IMG/VR virus record: IMGVR_UViG_3300035661_000235
Coordinates: 1-31,465 of that record
Length of the DNA: 31,465 nucleotides
Source of the DNA: a virus
Strand: one strand, 5' to 3'
Positions within the stretch are counted from its first letter, which is position 1, and each line of letters opens with the position of its first letter. Positions 6,879 through 16,408 of this stretch are shown here, in pieces. The notes under the pieces are model-generated. The model was not told the DNA's origin and did no database searches. It saw only the letters and a program-made list of their open reading frames with translations. Position numbers and translations under genes: made by a program.

Positions 6879-7109
6879 TCATCTCCTGCGTCCTGCGAAC
6901 AGCGGGACCGGAGGGCTCCCCGCGAGCACGTAGTGACGCAGGGCACCTCGGCACCAGTCGGAGAGCGGCACCTGCGCCACCCGCGCCGCCTCCTCGACCA
7001 GTGCGCGGAGCTCTGCGCCGCATCGGACCTCGAGACGTGTCTCGCTCACTACACGCCCAGGTGGGCGACCGCGACCGCGCTTTGGCACTGCGTTGCGTGA
7101 GCCGCTCAC
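6879..7109 (-). CDS. AT-hook / ribbon-helix-helix-like small DNA-binding protein
   Basis: 76 residues, starting at a GTG that overlaps the stop of the upstream minus-strand gene (GTGA), so translationally coupled to it. The N-terminus holds PKRGRGRPPGR, an AT-hook-like RGRP core. This is followed by a short strand (ETRLEVRCG) and two helices (AELRALVEEAARVAQ, PLSDWCRGALRHYVLAG), the order expected of a ribbon-helix-helix domain. It is the last gene of the leftward cluster and faces the lysis genes tail to tail across 25 bp. Probably a small DNA-binding regulator; family assignment from pattern only. Confidence 0.6.
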   Translation of the reverse strand: MSGSRNAVPKRGRGRPPGRVVSETRLEVRCGAELRALVEEAARVAQVPLSDWCRGALRHYVLAGSPPVPLFAGRRR

Positions 7110-7753
7110 GGCAGGCCCTCGGGCTTCGGGCAGTGCTCGGCCCACGCCTTGACATCTGCCACCAGCACGCGGCGCGCGCTCCAGCGGTGAAGCAACTCTG
7201 GCAGGCGCGCAGGCGTCGAGACGCCGTGGTCCTGCTGCGGCCCGTCCTCCGCGAGCTGAGCCAGCTTGCGGCTTCCGCTCTTGCGGACCAACGTGACAGC
7301 GCCGTGCAGCTCCCACTCGTCACCCTCGACGTGACGGGCCCAGCCAACACGGGTAACACCCCAGTAGCGGCCCGGAACCTGGATCAGCAATAGTCCTTCT
7401 CTCATTTCGTGTGTCCTCCAGTGACTGCTGTTGTTGTTGTTGTCGTTGTTGTCGTCGGCGACGTCGGTGGCGACGTCGGTGGCGTCGTCGGCGACGTCGG
7501 TGGCGTCGTCGGCGTCGGTGTCGTCGGCGTCGGCGGTGGCGTCGGTGGCGTCGTCGGCGTCGGTGGTGGCGTCGGTGGCGTCGTCGGCGTCGGCGGTGGC
7601 GTCGTCGTCGTCGGCGTCGTGGTCGTGGTCGGGGTCGGCGGCGAGAGACGCAAACCGCGAGAACTTGCCCCAGCCGACAGGCTGGGCCGTCTCCTCGGCC
7701 GCGTCCTGCAATGCGTCGCGCACGCGCGGGTCAGAGAGTTTACGGTTCCTCAC
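7106..7753 (-). CDS. Asp/Ala/Thr-repeat acidic protein with C-terminal globular domain
   Basis: 215 residues from a GTG 3 bp after the previous gene's stop. Residues 1-40 are an ordinary helical domain (VRDALQDAAEETAQPVGWGK). Residues about 41-110 are an almost pure Asp/Ala/Thr/Val repeat (ADDATDATADADD) ending in Asn/Asp/Ser. The rest (from MREGLLLIQVPGRYWGV) is a normal mixed domain with several Trp. An in-frame ATG at 7405 has a strong GGAGG 9 bases upstream, so the last 99 residues may also be made alone, or were once a separate gene fused by growth of the repeat. The acidic tract could bind metal, mimic DNA or simply be a linker. I do not recognise a family. Confidence 0.65.
   Translation of the reverse strand: MRNRKLSDPRVRDALQDAAEETAQPVGWGKFSRFASLAADPDHDHDADDDDATADADDATDATTDADDATDATADADDTDADDATDVADDATDVATDVADDNNDNNNNSSHWRTHEMREGLLLIQVPGRYWGVTRVGWARHVEGDEWELHGAVTLVRKSGSRKLAQLAEDGPQQDHGVSTPARLPELLHRWSARRVLVADVKAWAEHCPKPEGLP
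7424..7640. repeat. Trinucleotide-based low-complexity tract (GTC/GTT/GGC/GGT units)
   Basis: About 215 bp made almost wholly of GTC, GTT, GGC and GGT triplets, with longer near-repeats of GGCGTCGTCGGCGTCGG type. On the minus strand it encodes the Asp/Ala/Thr/Asn tract. It keeps several frames open on both strands, which explains long false ORFs here. Such a tract is prone to slippage and copy-number change. Confidence 0.85.
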
Positions 7754-10764: not shown

Positions 10765-11151
10765 ATGGCGAGCAGCGAGATCGAGCAGTTCCTGAGGCGG
10801 GTGTCGGTGGAGATTCGGAGAGTGGTTCGGGAGGAGCTGGCGGCGCTGGGGAGTCCTCCTCCGCAGCAACAGCACGCGCTCACGTACGCCCAGGCCGCGA
10901 AGGCGTTGGGGCTGTCCCCGCGCACGATCCGGCGGCTGGTCTCGATGGGTCAGCTTCTGGTGACTCGCACCACCTCACGCACGCCGCGAGTGCTCCCGTC
11001 GGAGATCGATCGCCTGCGGAGCCCGGAGCGCCCCGCGCCTCCGCCGGCACCGGTGGCCGGTCGCTCGCGGTCGGCGAAGACCGAGGCGCAGCAGCTCCGC
11101 GAGGCCCTGCGCGCTCAGCGCCGAGCCGCGAAGAGCAAGGCCGCCCCCTAG
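10765..11151 (+). CDS. MerR/excisionase-type helix-turn-helix protein (recombination directionality factor candidate)
   Basis: 128 residues; GAGGGG lies about 8 bases before the ATG. Residues 38-85 (LTYAQAAKALGLSPRTIRRL, then VSMGQLLVTRTTSRTPRVLP and SEIDRL) are the classic winged HTH of the excisionase/MerR-like (HTH_17) type: helix-turn-helix, a small wing and a last helix. The N-terminal helix may dimerise; the C-terminal 40 residues are basic (EALRAQRRAAKSKAAP) and could contact DNA. The gene ends tail to tail with the integrase, with a 4-bp overlap, which fits an Xis-like partner that directs excision. Equally it could be a regulator of the integrase region. Confidence 0.7.
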   Translation: MASSEIEQFLRRVSVEIRRVVREELAALGSPPPQQQHALTYAQAAKALGLSPRTIRRLVSMGQLLVTRTTSRTPRVLPSEIDRLRSPERPAPPPAPVAGRSRSAKTEAQQLREALRAQRRAAKSKAAP

Positions 11152-12440
11152 CCTCCCTTGACCAGGCGGAGGCCCGCAGCGACAGCCGGCGCCTCCTGGG
11201 GGGCGCGCTCGTCGAGTTGGATGACCTGGGCCGCGAGCTGGGCGCGCTTAAGCTCGAGCGCCGCGAGCTCCACCTCGAGCGCCGCGCGCTGAGCCGCGAG
11301 GCTGAGCGGGGCGGAGGCCGGAGTGGGCGTCTCGTCGGCGTCGACGCGCACGGTGGGGATCGACCGTGTCGGGATCTTCGAGTCGACGTAGAACCGGCGC
11401 GTCGTCGACTCGCTCTTGTGGCCGGCGAACTCGGCGAGCGCCTTGAAGTCGGCGCCGAGGTCGTGCCCCCACGTGAGCACGCTGTGGCGCATCACGCCCA
11501 TTCCGAAGCGGGTCACGCCGGCCGCGTCGCAGGCGGCGCGCATCGCTCGAGCGAAGCCCATGCGGTTCGGCAGCGCCCCCTTGCGCTTCGGGTCGCCTCG
11601 GATCGCGAGCAGGCGCTCCGCGCACTCGATGTAGACGAGCTCCTTCAGGGGCGTGCGCGTCTCGCCACCGGTCTTGTGTTCAGTGACGAGCACTGCCAGC
11701 GGCCCATCGATGCGCCCTGGAGGGGGGCGAACGATCTCACCCGCGACGACGAAGCGCCGCGCCTCGGAGACGTGCCAGGCGGTCGCGCTGAGCAGCAGCA
11801 GCACGTCGTTCAGCGGCCAGTTGAGCTCGCGGTAGACCCGGCGAACGATCTCGACGTCGATCACCTTGCGCCTGCGATCCTTCTCGGGCTTGGCCTGCGG
11901 CACGAGGAGATCGAGGGTCGCATCTTCGGCGTTCTTGATCGTGTGCTTCACGGTGCGCAGCCACGTGAAGAGCCCCTTGATCGCCTTGATCCGCTGCGAC
12001 TTGCGGCGCGGCCACTGCTCGAGGGCCGGGTGCAGATCGTTGGCGAGCGAGAGCGCGCGGAGGTCCTTGTCGCCGACCACCTCGATCCAGTCGGCCAGAC
12101 ATCGGGCCATCTCGTCGGCCCACTCGGCCGTGACGCCCTGGGCGAGCTGGTGCGCGTGGTACTCGAGGCTCAGGGCCGTCGTGAGGCGGGGAGCGGTGGT
12201 CGGCACCACGCTGGCCGGCGTGTAGCCCTTCGGGTCGACCTCGAAGCGCGCGAGGTGCTTCAGCGCGGCCTGGCGATCGGTGGCCCGGGTCGAGACGTGA
12301 AAGCGGTCGCTCTTAATGCACTTCTCGATCACGAACACAGACTTGCCGAGCGGCTTCCCGGTCTCGGCGTCGACCTTCTGCCTCTTGTACCCGCCCTCCC
12401 ACTCGCCGACCGAGACCCACTTCGACTTCTTCGCGCGCAC
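11148..12440 (-). CDS. int: Tyrosine recombinase (phage integrase), variant catalytic residues
   Basis: 430 residues from a GTG preceded by GGAGG. It has an N-terminal arm-binding part, a core-binding domain (about 85-180, HAHQLAQGVTAEWADEMARC) and a catalytic domain (190-355). Seen are the beta-hairpin Lys256 (TEHKTGG), MRHSVLTWGHDLGADFKALA with Arg318, GHKSESTTRRFY with His341 and the nucleophile Tyr351. Two usual residues differ: the box I position normally Arg (GLRxSE) is His223 in ATAWHVSEARRF, and the HxxR His is Gly315 (GVMR). The C-terminal tail has an extra heptad helix (about 378-410, AALEVELAALELKRAQLAAQ). It lies next to attP with its arm repeats, reading away from it. It should integrate the phage at a tRNA-Glu gene. 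Confidence 0.9.
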   Translation of the reverse strand: MRAKKSKWVSVGEWEGGYKRQKVDAETGKPLGKSVFVIEKCIKSDRFHVSTRATDRQAALKHLARFEVDPKGYTPASVVPTTAPRLTTALSLEYHAHQLAQGVTAEWADEMARCLADWIEVVGDKDLRALSLANDLHPALEQWPRRKSQRIKAIKGLFTWLRTVKHTIKNAEDATLDLLVPQAKPEKDRRRKVIDVEIVRRVYRELNWPLNDVLLLLSATAWHVSEARRFVVAGEIVRPPPGRIDGPLAVLVTEHKTGGETRTPLKELVYIECAERLLAIRGDPKRKGALPNRMGFARAMRAACDAAGVTRFGMGVMRHSVLTWGHDLGADFKALAEFAGHKSESTTRRFYVDSKIPTRSIPTVRVDADETPTPASAPLSLAAQRAALEVELAALELKRAQLAAQVIQLDERAPQEAPAVAAGLRLVKGG

Positions 12441-12457
12441 GTCAGGCCTCCGAGATC

Positions 12458-12479
12458 TTCACCACAGCTTCACCACGCT
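12458..12479. repeat. Left arm-type integrase sites (two direct repeats)
   Basis: TTCACCACAGC followed directly by TTCACCACGCT, an 11-bp tandem pair with core TTCACCAC. The same pair in form TTACACCACAG/TTACACCACGC lies on the other side of the att core at 12644-12665. Paired repeats flanking a tRNA-derived core at 60-80 bp are what arm-binding sites of a lambda-type integrase look like. They also lie just upstream of the integrase start. Confidence 0.7.
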
Positions 12480-12528
12480 TCGCGACCGCAGTACCGTAAC
12501 CACTGAACAAACGAAGGAAAGGGACGAA

Positions 12529-13113
12529 ATGAAACAGGCCTTTCAAGCCGGTAACACGAGTTCGAATCTCGTTGGGGTCAATCCCCCTCCCTCGGAGAAA
12601 CGCCGAGGGCGGGGGCCTGCGGCGGCCACCGGCGGCCCCCCATTTACACCACAGTTACACCACGCCCCGACCCCCTCCGAGAACGGAACGGAGGTTCAGG
12701 CCAAGGCTCGCGCGCAGCGGAAGCCCGGCACGACGCCGATCGAGGCCCCGCCGACGGCCCGTCAGCTCGTTGTCCTGACGGAGGTCTGCCGGCTCGCCCA
12801 GGCTGCCGGCGCCACCACGATCCGAGAGATCGGTGACGCGCTCTCGGCGACCTCGACGAACGGCGTCGTCGACCACCTCGTGGCTCTGCAGCGCCGCGGG
12901 CTCCTCACCCGGGAGCCCCGCAAGAGCCGGACGATCCGCCCCACCCCCGCAGGCCTCGCGCTGGTCGGCAGGTTCGCGGGTCGCCCCGGGGCCGGTGTCG
13001 ACACCGCTCAGCAGGTGGTCGACGCCGCCCTGAGCCGCCTGCTCCCCCGCTCCGGCCGCGGCGCCTTCCAGACCGCTGCCCAGGTCGCGCTCAAGAAGCG
13101 GGGTGGCCGGTGA
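12529..13113 (+). CDS. LexA-like winged-helix regulator overlapping attP
   Basis: 194 residues from the ATG at 12529, with AAAGGGA 5-8 bases upstream; this is the only ATG/GTG/TTG in frame before the domain. Residues 75-143 (TARQLVVLTEVCRLAQAAGA, then TTIREIGDALSATSTNGVVD, HLVALQRRGLLTREPRKSRT, IRPTPAG) match the LexA DNA-binding domain: three-helix wHTH, ALxxxSTNGVVxHLxALxRRGLL and the KSR wing. The LexA/S24 protease domain is absent; the rest is a short Arg/Ala-rich tail. Codons 4-17 are the tRNA-derived attP core, so integration would cut the gene from its own start. The linker 20-75 is Pro-rich. A lysogeny or SOS-linked regulator is likely. It leads the early operon (GTGA overlap with the next gene). 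Confidence 0.7.
   Translation: MKQAFQAGNTSSNLVGVNPPPSEKRRGRGPAAATGGPPFTPQLHHAPTPSENGTEVQAKARAQRKPGTTPIEAPPTARQLVVLTEVCRLAQAAGATTIREIGDALSATSTNGVVDHLVALQRRGLLTREPRKSRTIRPTPAGLALVGRFAGRPGAGVDTAQQVVDAALSRLLPRSGRGAFQTAAQVALKKRGGR
12539..12580 (+). other. attP core: 3' part of a tRNA-Glu(TTC) gene
   Basis: The 42 bases contain an anticodon loop CTTTCAA (anticodon TTC), a 3' anticodon stem half GCCGG, variable loop TAAC, a T arm ACGAG-TTCGAAT-CTCGT with perfect 5-bp stem, the 3' acceptor strand TGGGGTC and discriminator A. The 5' half of the tRNA is missing, as in attP sites that restore the 3' end of a host tRNA on integration. Flanking arm repeats and the adjacent integrase support this. The exact core limits cannot be fixed without the host sequence. 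Confidence 0.88.
12644..12665. repeat. Right arm-type integrase sites (two direct repeats)
   Basis: TTACACCACAG followed directly by TTACACCACGC, matching the left pair at 12458-12479 (shared core T(T/A)CACCAC). They lie inside the coding region of the LexA-like gene, in its linker, so the integrase bound here would also cover that gene. Confidence 0.7.
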
Positions 13114-13427
13114 GCCACCAGGTGACGATCGAAGATCTGCTCGCGCCCAAGCCGGTCGAGGCGCGCCGGGTGAAGACCGCGAACCCCGATCTCGTGCGCG
13201 TGCGCTCGCGCCTGGGCTCAGCGGTGCTCGAGTTCTGCCGCTCTCGCCTGGGCGATACCCACGGGGGGACGTTCCGCGCCTCTGAGCTGCACGCCGCGGT
13301 GCCCGACGCGGCGCCGGCCTCTGCCGACCGCACCCTCCGCGAGCTCCGCCGTGACGGCGTGATCTCCTATCGAGTGCTGTCCCGCTCGCAGTCGCTCTAC
13401 CAGGTCGAGGCGGTGGCCAATGGCTGA
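13110..13427 (+). CDS. Winged-helix-like protein, paralogue of the C-terminal domain at 15863-16408
   Basis: 105 residues from a GTG overlapping the LexA-like gene's stop (GTGA). Residues 25-103 (NPDLVRVRSRLGSAVLEFCR, TFRASELHAAVPDAAPASAD, RTLRELRRDGVISYRVLSRS, QSLYQV) repeat almost word for word in the protein at 15863-16408. The pattern of three helices ending in LRELRRDGVISYRVL plus a beta wing is that of a winged HTH. The first 25 residues are unique (MSHQVTIEDLLAPKPVEARR). Two copies of one DNA-binding domain in the same operon point to duplication. Exact role unknown; DNA binding is likely. Confidence 0.65.
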   Translation: MSHQVTIEDLLAPKPVEARRVKTANPDLVRVRSRLGSAVLEFCRSRLGDTHGGTFRASELHAAVPDAAPASADRTLRELRRDGVISYRVLSRSQSLYQVEAVANG

Positions 13428-14518: not shown

Positions 14519-14784
14519 GCAGTACCGAGAAGCGGAGGAGGTGCGCTCGGTCGTTCCTTGAACTCGAGCACCTGCGCGCGCGGGTGCTCAGGCTCACGCG
14601 TGCAGTCACGGGGCTCTACACGCGTCAGCCGCCCCAGCGACTGGGAGACCGAGCCTCGCGGCGCCCAGGTCGTCACCTGCTCAGCCTGCGGCAGAGCTCG
14701 CCGCGATGGCCCCGGCCCGCACTCACCCCACTTCTCGGCTGCCGGCGCCCTCGTCGTCGGCCCACCAATTCTTCGCACCCCTGA
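14515..14784 (+). CDS. Small basic helical protein, possibly frameshifted near 14636
   Basis: 89 residues as read in frame from the GTG overlapping the previous stop (GTGA). The first 40 residues (RSFLELEHLRARVLRLTRAV, then TGLYTRQPP) are natural: a basic helix with heptad leucines. After about 14636 this frame turns Arg/Pro/Ser-rich, while the +1 frame becomes credible (SDWETEPRGAQVVTCSACGR, RARRDGPGPHSPH) and stays open into the methyltransferase-like gene. The change occurs at CCGCCCC, where CCC-C could allow a +1 slip. Either a real frameshift, an assembly indel or a short gene with a ragged end. Confidence 0.4.
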   Translation: MSSTEKRRRCARSFLELEHLRARVLRLTRAVTGLYTRQPPQRLGDRASRRPGRHLLSLRQSSPRWPRPALTPLLGCRRPRRRPTNSSHP

Positions 14785-14794
14785 ACAATCGAAC

Positions 14795-15388
14795 ATGACA
14801 GCCCCTCTCTCTCCCCCAGCTGCTGACCTGCTCCTGAAGCTGTTCAACGCCTATGATCTCTTCGCCGGCGGCGGAGGCGTCTCGACCGGAATCGAGGCTG
14901 CAACCGGACACCCGGTCACCGTCGCGATCAACCACTCGCCGGGCGCCATCGCGGTACACGAGGCCAACCACGCGCACACGCACCACCTGATCTCCGACGT
15001 CCGATCCCCTCTCCCGACGATCACCGCGGGCGGAGTCGATCGCCGCGTTCAGGTGCGCGCCTTCCTCGCCGCCTACTACGGGAGCGACGGCAAGGACGTG
15101 GGGCAGAGCCTCCGGGAGCCGCTGCGCACCGTCGTCACCCGAGATCGATTCGCCCTGGTCACCGTGGCCGGCGTCGAGCACGAGATCTACGACATTGGGC
15201 ACCGAATGCTGCACTGGTCAGAGCTGCTGCGCGCCCAGTTCGGACGCTTTGCTCAGGCGTATGACCTCAGCGCCGTCAAGACCGTGAAGGAGAAGATCAA
15301 GCTGCTCGGGAACAGCGTTCCTCCTGAGCTCGTTGAGGCGCTGGTGCGGGCGAACATCTCGCAGGGCTTCGCGCGGAGGGCGGCGTGA
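14795..15388 (+). CDS. C5-cytosine DNA methyltransferase-like protein lacking the catalytic core
   Basis: 197 residues from the ATG at 14795 (the frame is open upstream). Motif I is intact (NAYDLFAGGGGVSTGIEAAT), followed by a motif II-like VAINHSPGAIAVHEANHAHT and SDV as motif III. The sequence then jumps to RSPLPTITAGG and the C-terminal parts: SLREPLRTVVTRDRFALVTV, RMLHWSELLRAQFG and KIKLLGNSVPPELVEALVRA (motifs IX-X). Motif IV with its catalytic Cys (PCQ), VI (ENV) and VIII are absent, and the protein is well under the usual 330 or more residues. An in-frame internal deletion is the simplest reading. It may still bind SAM or DNA but should not methylate alone. Confidence 0.75.
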   Translation: MTAPLSPPAADLLLKLFNAYDLFAGGGGVSTGIEAATGHPVTVAINHSPGAIAVHEANHAHTHHLISDVRSPLPTITAGGVDRRVQVRAFLAAYYGSDGKDVGQSLREPLRTVVTRDRFALVTVAGVEHEIYDIGHRMLHWSELLRAQFGRFAQAYDLSAVKTVKEKIKLLGNSVPPELVEALVRANISQGFARRAA

Positions 15389-15819: not shown

Positions 15820-15866
15820 AGGATTTGGTGGCCGAGGTGACCAGCTTGGCGGGGGTCTACCGGTGA
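15777..15866 (+). CDS. 29-aa ORF duplicating the N-terminus of the replication initiator
   Basis: TTG start overlapping the previous stop (TTGA), GGAGG 7 bases upstream, stop overlapping the next GTG. The first 14 residues (LSHIAVDLKVIEGL) equal those of the initiator at 16566 except for Tyr to His; then it diverges (EDLVAEVTSLAGVYR) and ends. This looks like the remnant of a duplicated initiator gene, kept short or kept only for translational coupling. Whether the peptide has a role is unknown. Confidence 0.45.
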   Translation: MSHIAVDLKVIEGLEDLVAEVTSLAGVYR

Positions 15867-16408
15867 GCGCCCCGTACACGCTGGAGGAGGCGCTCGCGCT
15901 CCGCGCGAGCCACTACGGAGCCAGCGCGGCTCGCGTCATCGCCACCGTCGAGGCACTGAACGCGCTCAAGGCAGAGGTCGAACTCCATCGGCGCGAGCTC
16001 GCCGGCTGGAAGAAGTCGCTGGCGGAGTCGTACGAGGAGAGGAAGAGCGCCATCGCCGAGCGCAACGAGGCTCGCGAGCGCGAGGAGGCGCTGCGCAAAA
16101 CCCTCGAACACGCCCTCGTGAATGCCATCGCGGTGGAGAAGGCGCGCGAGGTCGAGGCGCCCCGGCGGCCCGCCGCCAACCCTGACCTCGTGCGGGTCCG
16201 CTCCCGGCTCGGGGCTGCGGTGCTGGAGTTCTGCCGCTCCCGGCTGGGGCAAACCTTCCATGCCGCCGAGCTCCACGGCGCCGTCCCGTACGCTGCGCCT
16301 GCCTCCGCCGAATACACCCTCCGCGAGCTGCGCCGCGACGGGGTGGTGGACTACCAAGTCGTCTCCCGCTCGGAGTCGCTCTACCTCGTGCGGGCGGTGG
16401 CCTCGTGA
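15863..16408 (+). CDS. Coiled-coil plus winged-helix-like DNA-binding protein
   Basis: 181 residues from a GTG overlapping the previous stop. Residues 1-100 are a long charged helix (LKAEVELHRRELAGWKKSLA, SYEERKSAIAERNEAREREE) that should form a coiled coil. Residues 104-180 (NPDLVRVRSRLGAAVLEFCR, FHAAELHGAVPYAAPASAEY, TLRELRRDGVVDYQVVSRSE) are a close copy of the domain in the 13110-13427 protein and fit a winged HTH. It precedes the initiator gene and the ori-like repeats, so a helper in origin recognition or early regulation is a reasonable guess. Confidence 0.65.
   Translation: MSAPYTLEEALALRASHYGASAARVIATVEALNALKAEVELHRRELAGWKKSLAESYEERKSAIAERNEAREREEALRKTLEHALVNAIAVEKAREVEAPRRPAANPDLVRVRSRLGAAVLEFCRSRLGQTFHAAELHGAVPYAAPASAEYTLRELRRDGVVDYQVVSRSESLYLVRAVAS

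Follow-up and report, generated by a model that had tools for sequence, protein, structure and literature searches.

The locus analysed here raises the question of what becomes of a gene when its only standard start codon and its DNA-binding domain lie on opposite sides of a phage attachment site. The window, by which we mean the entire stretch of 31,465 bases that was analysed (68% G+C), is a whole circular phage genome that begins and ends with the same 127 bases. Because of this exact terminal repeat, the attP in the window is that of the free phage and not a prophage end. Terminase, portal and tail genes are found on either side of the attP region, and attP itself sits between the integrase gene int and a set of rightward early genes. 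The features of the region are as follows.

10765 to 11151, plus strand: excisionase-like HTH gene, convergent with int (phrog_66 excisionase/regulator, E 1.2e-7; TIGR01764 excise, E 2.6e-5)
11148 to 12440, minus strand: tyrosine integrase gene int, transcribed away from attP (phrog_1 integrase, E 1.9e-9)
12457 to 12476, plus strand: two left arm-type sites CTTCACCACAG (CTTCACCAC twice) with an 11-bp period, an exact repeat with equivalent pairs in the relatives L002, L007 and L010
12512 to 12531, plus strand: ribosome-binding site GAAGGAAAGGG with ATG 12529, the sole canonical start codon that the wHTH ORF has past the start of int
12529 to 13113, plus strand: ORF of 194 codons that contains attP towards its 5' end and encodes a LexA-type winged-helix (wHTH) domain towards its 3' end
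12540 to 12580, plus strand: attP core, corresponding to tRNA-Glu(TTC) from its anticodon loop through the discriminator base (3' half; Rfam tRNA; the same element lies beside related integrases)
12583 to 12615, plus strand: hairpin directly after the tRNA part, with a 12-bp stem and no U tract (segment -36.6 kcal/mol, z -1.8)
12644 to 12663, plus strand: two right arm-type sites TTACACCACAG (TTACACCAC twice) with an 11-bp period, an exact repeat inside codons 39-45
12667 to 12753, plus strand: leader segment with a coding signature and no canonical start (log-odds +0.35, GC3 0.90)
12754 to 12933, plus strand: LexA-type winged-helix DNA-binding domain (PF01726, E 6e-10, over the cut-off; residues 76-135 counted from ATG 12529)
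13110 to 13427, plus strand: next operon gene, with GTG 13110 within the wHTH stop region (coding log-odds +0.43; paralogue at 15863)

A preliminary description of this DNA had placed a tRNA-Glu-derived attP within the start of a LexA-like gene, and both the position and the origin of the core are borne out. The Rfam tRNA model aligns to 12523-12580 across its full length (Infernal, E 0.011) with anticodon UUC and intact anticodon and T arms; the lack of the 5' half of the tRNA keeps the score under the curated cut-off. The core consists of the anticodon loop CTTTCAA, the right half of the anticodon stem, the T arm and the acceptor strand, and the same tRNA 3' half adjoins homologous integrases in L002, L007 and L010. 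The window has just four places where an exact 8-mer is repeated at an 11-bp spacing, and two of these (12457 and 12644) flank the core. The site is thus a tyrosine-integrase tRNA attP: its core is formed by the 3' part of a tRNA from the anticodon loop onward, arm-type repeats flank this core on either side, and int lies next to it. Judged from the extent of the core, recombination probably takes place within the anticodon loop. The exact 42-base core was present in no other record among the genome contigs or viral contigs. The hairpin that follows the core is a candidate attenuator, and tRNA-adjacent hairpins occur at three of three attP sites, being strong in L010 (z -7.6) and weak in the window and in L002 (z -1.8 and -1.6, respectively).

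The attP spans codons 4-45 of the wHTH ORF, with codons 4-18 taken up by the core (12539-12580) and codons 39-45, in the linker, by the right arms, as had been described. In-frame starts occur at 12316 (ATG), 12343 (TTG), 12385 (TTG) and 12529 (ATG), and the next one, GTG 12880, is already inside the domain; no in-frame ATG, GTG or TTG is present from 12532 to 12879. Since the three leftmost of these starts lie opposite int, no standard start other than 12529 is sensible, in agreement with the earlier view of it as the sole credible one. Its ribosome site forms an anti-SD duplex of -5.7 kcal/mol, which is within the range of the other starts of this phage, although 23% of all ATGs score at least as well. 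A consensus scan recognised no promoter.

Codon log-odds trained on the clear genes of the phage were used to ask where coding begins. The first 45 codons carry no coding signature (12529-12648, log-odds -0.15, GC3 0.62), which is consistent with a leader constrained by attP and also with untranslated DNA. Coding bias is then present throughout 12667-13110 of the wHTH frame, commencing right after the right arm, and in the leader segment at 12667-12753 the other two frames of the strand score -1.04 and -0.26. An open frame through attP was also considered as proof in itself of a translated attP and was rejected, as the frame stays open by chance with a frequency of 0.60-0.70 when the core is fixed and the flanks are shuffled (0.25-0.30 in L002). 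The case for a genuine start left of the core is instead that the coding signature begins just past the right arm while no standard start exists beyond it, so that a canonical start must be located to the left.

The wHTH domain also matches TIGR00498 (E 2.4e-9, far below the family cut-off) and the LexA DNA-binding domain 1lea (E 0.005), and the protein has a weak match to the phage repressor family phrog_362 (E 2.8e-4). The product is like LexA in its DNA-binding domain (PF01726) but unlike LexA in that the C-terminal self-cleaving peptidase is absent, with only 59 residues following the domain. There is likewise no ssrA-like C-terminal tag on the ORF, which ends in ...QVALKKRGGR. Relatives of the protein were absent from viral contigs, and phages gave only short matches to the DNA-binding domain. 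Overlap between the wHTH stop and the start of the next gene indicates that the wHTH ORF heads an operon. The product of that second gene is without a strong family match and has no relatives in viral contigs. It is 71% identical over the alignment to a second small protein encoded at 15863-16408, and the two paralogues share a near-identical core, NPDLVRVRSRLGxAVLEFCRSRLG.

Four relatives were compared with the window. L002 was found by an integrase search (integrase 58% identical over the alignment), L007 and L010 by a degenerate core search (integrases about 30% identical, 30 and 32%) and L019 by an integrase-family profile search (37% identical). Integrase relatives were absent from phages and plasmids, and a two-member profile gave none in genome contigs. 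L002 carries the same core and arms, an excisionase-like gene and, further to the right, a DNA methylase gene. Its core lies one base off the frame used in the window, and that frame leads into an unrelated HNH nuclease (phrog_826, E 1.2e-32). As in the window, the coding signature sets in immediately past the right arm (about L002:5770), and the interval from there to the domain contains no standard start. The candidate starts in L002 are ATG 5928 and ATG 5913 left of the core (anti-SD duplex -5.9 for 5928) and GTG 5826 right of the core, the latter with a weak ribosome site; ATG 5928, with a ribosome site like that in the window, appears to be the best placed. At L002:4957-5928 the HNH frame runs about 450 bases beyond the coding signature, has no stop of its own and is antisense to a lipoprotein-like gene (L002:4960-5412, plus strand), which suggests that the nuclease gene is truncated. 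L019 has no recognisable tRNA-Glu core; its HNH gene is complete, begins 29 bases from int and includes a leader of some 70 codons.

The remaining two relatives have other layouts. L010 possesses left and right arms, yet a TAA stands four codons left of its core, its gene start is well right of the arms, and a very strong perfect hairpin lies between the tRNA-Glu core and the right arms (L010:7390-7428). L007 proceeds from the integrase side to the core and then to a very strong terminator-like hairpin (z -8.2). The 11-bp arm pairs flank the core on both sides in L002 and L010 but are found on the left side only in L007. L007 is thus presumably the end of a related integrated prophage with host-derived DNA past the core, an arrangement that fits attR; no attL was seen. 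An HTH_17-type gene occupies the excisionase position in L002, L007 and L019, and L010 has a small wHTH gene there. Searches of the four relatives (L002, L007, L010, L019), of which the two at the protein level had no positive control, found neither a LexA-type gene or domain nor the second operon gene in any of them, and among the collections searched the wHTH regulator is found only in the window, with no homologue of the same gene. The degenerate core search additionally yielded full tRNA-Glu genes in L006, L008 and L011, where the frames through the 5' half vary, as well as a core beside an unrelated integrase in L009.

The best reading of these observations, to which we give about an even chance, is that the wHTH ORF is a working gene that is made from unintegrated DNA only and is off in the prophage. 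The phage would be a temperate one whose tyrosine integrase inserts it at the anticodon loop of tRNA-Glu(TTC), and the leading gene of its rightward early operon would have attP within its translated 5' end. In the free phage, transcription and translation would both start between int and the core, the latter at ATG 12529, and reading would pass through the core, the hairpin and the right arms into the LexA-type domain to give what may be an early (lytic-side) regulator. Upon integration the ATG, its ribosome site and the probable promoter would stay at the int end. This part of the preliminary description is supported by the position of the start left of the core and is consistent with the end seen in L007. 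The rest of the wHTH gene would end up behind the restored tRNA-Glu and the hairpin that follows it, without a start codon. Host tRNA processing enzymes cut a transcript at both tRNA ends. A transcript entering from the tRNA would therefore be cut, would meet the hairpin at 12583-12615 and would offer no start codon. With the start lost, and with processing and the hairpin in the way, expression of the wHTH gene and perhaps of its operon would be limited to free DNA and would cease in the prophage. For the same reasons the earlier suggestion that the gene comes under the tRNA promoter after integration is doubtful, as tRNA processing and the hairpin would stop read-through from supplying a start. 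Further in favour of a free-phage-only gene, the HNH genes of L002 and L019 likewise begin next to int. Counted against it are the first 45 codons with no coding signature, the open frame expected by chance, the different layout of L010, the possible use of GTG 5826 in L002, the negative promoter scan and the missing homologue in the searched collections.

The relatives lend no support to a regulator switch that is conserved or dedicated. The gene that abuts attP is LexA-type in the window and HNH in another frame in L002, no gene overlaps attP in L010, and none of the four relatives has the wHTH gene. Because the neighbour of attP differs in this way, our reading is that the layout would act as a general silencing of whichever early gene abuts attP rather than as a switch that evolved around the wHTH regulator. 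Gene turnover at the attP margin may have produced this layout incidentally, and prophage silencing would then be a side effect that early genes can tolerate or profit from. Among the relatives, L002 has a start upstream of the core (ATG 5928), though GTG 5826 is also possible there, and in L010 no ORF begins to the left of the core. A variant that we regard as unlikely gives attP itself the role of a translated leader. Ribosomes from ATG 12529 would hold the hairpin open in the free phage so that the early operon is expressed, and integration would put untranslated tRNA in their place, making the same stretch a terminator and turning the operon off. If true, integration state would be read directly by translation and the operon would need no repressor.

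Gene turnover is also at the centre of a tentative alternative, which is possible though clearly not favoured, in which the locus is the scar of a capture event. According to this explanation a gene was already present when attP arrived beside it or within it, and acquired genes turn over in the zone to the right of attP. The wHTH gene would have lost its own start, would merely be open through attP and would be expressed poorly or not at all. The unrelated genes to the right of attP among the relatives, the coding signature whose onset coincides exactly with the arm boundary in both the window and L002 and the chance-level open frame through attP all point that way, as do the remnant-like HNH frame of L002 and the fact that LexA itself begins about four residues before its domain. 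Against a mere remnant, the wHTH frame keeps an intact domain, its own stop, the overlap with the next gene and coding bias over 12667-13110, and it has a ribosome site and ATG in frame left of the core. The beginning of LexA near its domain, together with the onset of the coding signature near 12667, could alternatively mean that translation begins right of the arms at a non-standard codon, namely ACG 12730 or 12733 after GGAAG, or ATC 12739, all shortly before the domain. The protein would then be made from free and integrated DNA alike and the position of attP would have no effect. We consider this rather improbable, as it does not account for the twenty or so codons with coding bias that precede 12730 and start codons of the ACG or ATC type are rare and weak.

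Two further alternatives assign the protein a function in the prophage. Integration-dependent immunity like that of phage BPs, with the prophage form of the wHTH protein an active repressor and the free form inactive, has a published precedent (PMC4557955) and draws on the DNA-binding domain and the weak phrog_362 match. However, integration here takes the start and not the C-terminus, no ssrA-like tag is present, and int and the wHTH gene are divergent whereas the BPs genes are co-transcribed, which makes this explanation very improbable. About the same credit, if anything slightly less, is due to the idea that the wHTH protein is a directionality factor (excisionase) encoded beside attP. Winged-helix directionality factors are known (PMC11963761), but prophage DNA has to supply an excisionase, and it is there that the wHTH gene would lose its start; the gene beside int at 10765-11151, which recurs in the relatives, is a better candidate. 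The preferred reading remains that of a gene expressed from free DNA and off in the prophage.

Comparison with known systems indicates what is particular about such a gene. The parallels drawn earlier to BPs and to phage Mx8 of Myxococcus xanthus are real as cases of attP inside a gene, although both alter the 3' end of that gene. In BPs-type phages integration removes the 3' end of the repressor gene; the shorter protein encoded by the prophage is the one active as repressor, the longer one bears a degradation tag, and int and repressor are co-transcribed (PMC4557955). The window resembles BPs in that attP lies in the ORF of a DNA-binding protein and the gene would be altered by integration. 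It is unlike BPs in that the 5' end and start would be removed, the genes are divergent, no tag is found and the predicted outcome is loss of the product. Truncation of the C-terminus with start and promoter retained is not what is seen, since the core falls in codons 4-18 and the start lies across it. In Mx8 attP is inside int and integration changes the 3' end of int (PMC6070905); that phage, also GC-rich, is similar in having attP within a coding sequence that is altered by integration but dissimilar in that the affected gene is int itself and the 3' end is what changes.

Integrative elements provide a different comparison. In ICEKp1, ICEclc and ICEEc1 the int promoter switches with integration state, and in ICEKp1 the int transcript that the integrated form makes from the tRNA promoter is damped by stem-loops downstream of the tRNA gene (PMC13023037). 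As in these elements, the gene behind the tRNA attachment site in the window would see different upstream DNA when integrated and when excised, and by analogy with the ICEKp1 stem-loops an insulating role for the hairpin is plausible. In contrast, in the ICEs it is int that is affected and only the promoter changes with the start codon kept, while here the start codon of a presumed regulator would be left behind. Boilgate (PMC10865867) is an example of tRNA-targeting integration with the tRNA restored at attL, but its attP is described as upstream of int and not inside the next gene. A limited literature search turned up no case in which integration at a tRNA gene costs an early regulator its start codon; the known phage cases of attP within a gene change the 3' end of a repressor or integrase. 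If the preferred reading is correct, an attP that deprives the leading early gene of its start codon would offer a simple route to expression confined to the free phage. For annotators, gene starts that run through a tRNA-derived attP may be real, and they would be lost from prophage sequences, where the same gene would look truncated.

Several observations elsewhere in the window and among the relatives concern other genes. A cytosine methylase-like ORF at 14558-15388 is seemingly shortened internally relative to its 568-codon homologue at L002:3048-4754, and the ORF at 7106-7753 (minus strand) contains low-complexity Asp/Ala/Thr-rich repeats at 7402-7653. The integrase family itself (window, L002, L007, L010 and L019) has an altered active site, with the first catalytic Arg (GLRVSE in a XerC-like structure) aligning to His in the motif variants TAWHVSE, TGLHVSE and SMHDTE, and, by eye, TGLHVAE in L019. 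The His of HxLRH aligns to Gly, and RHS, GH and Tyr are retained. This altered active site recurs among relatives whose attP sites are intact.
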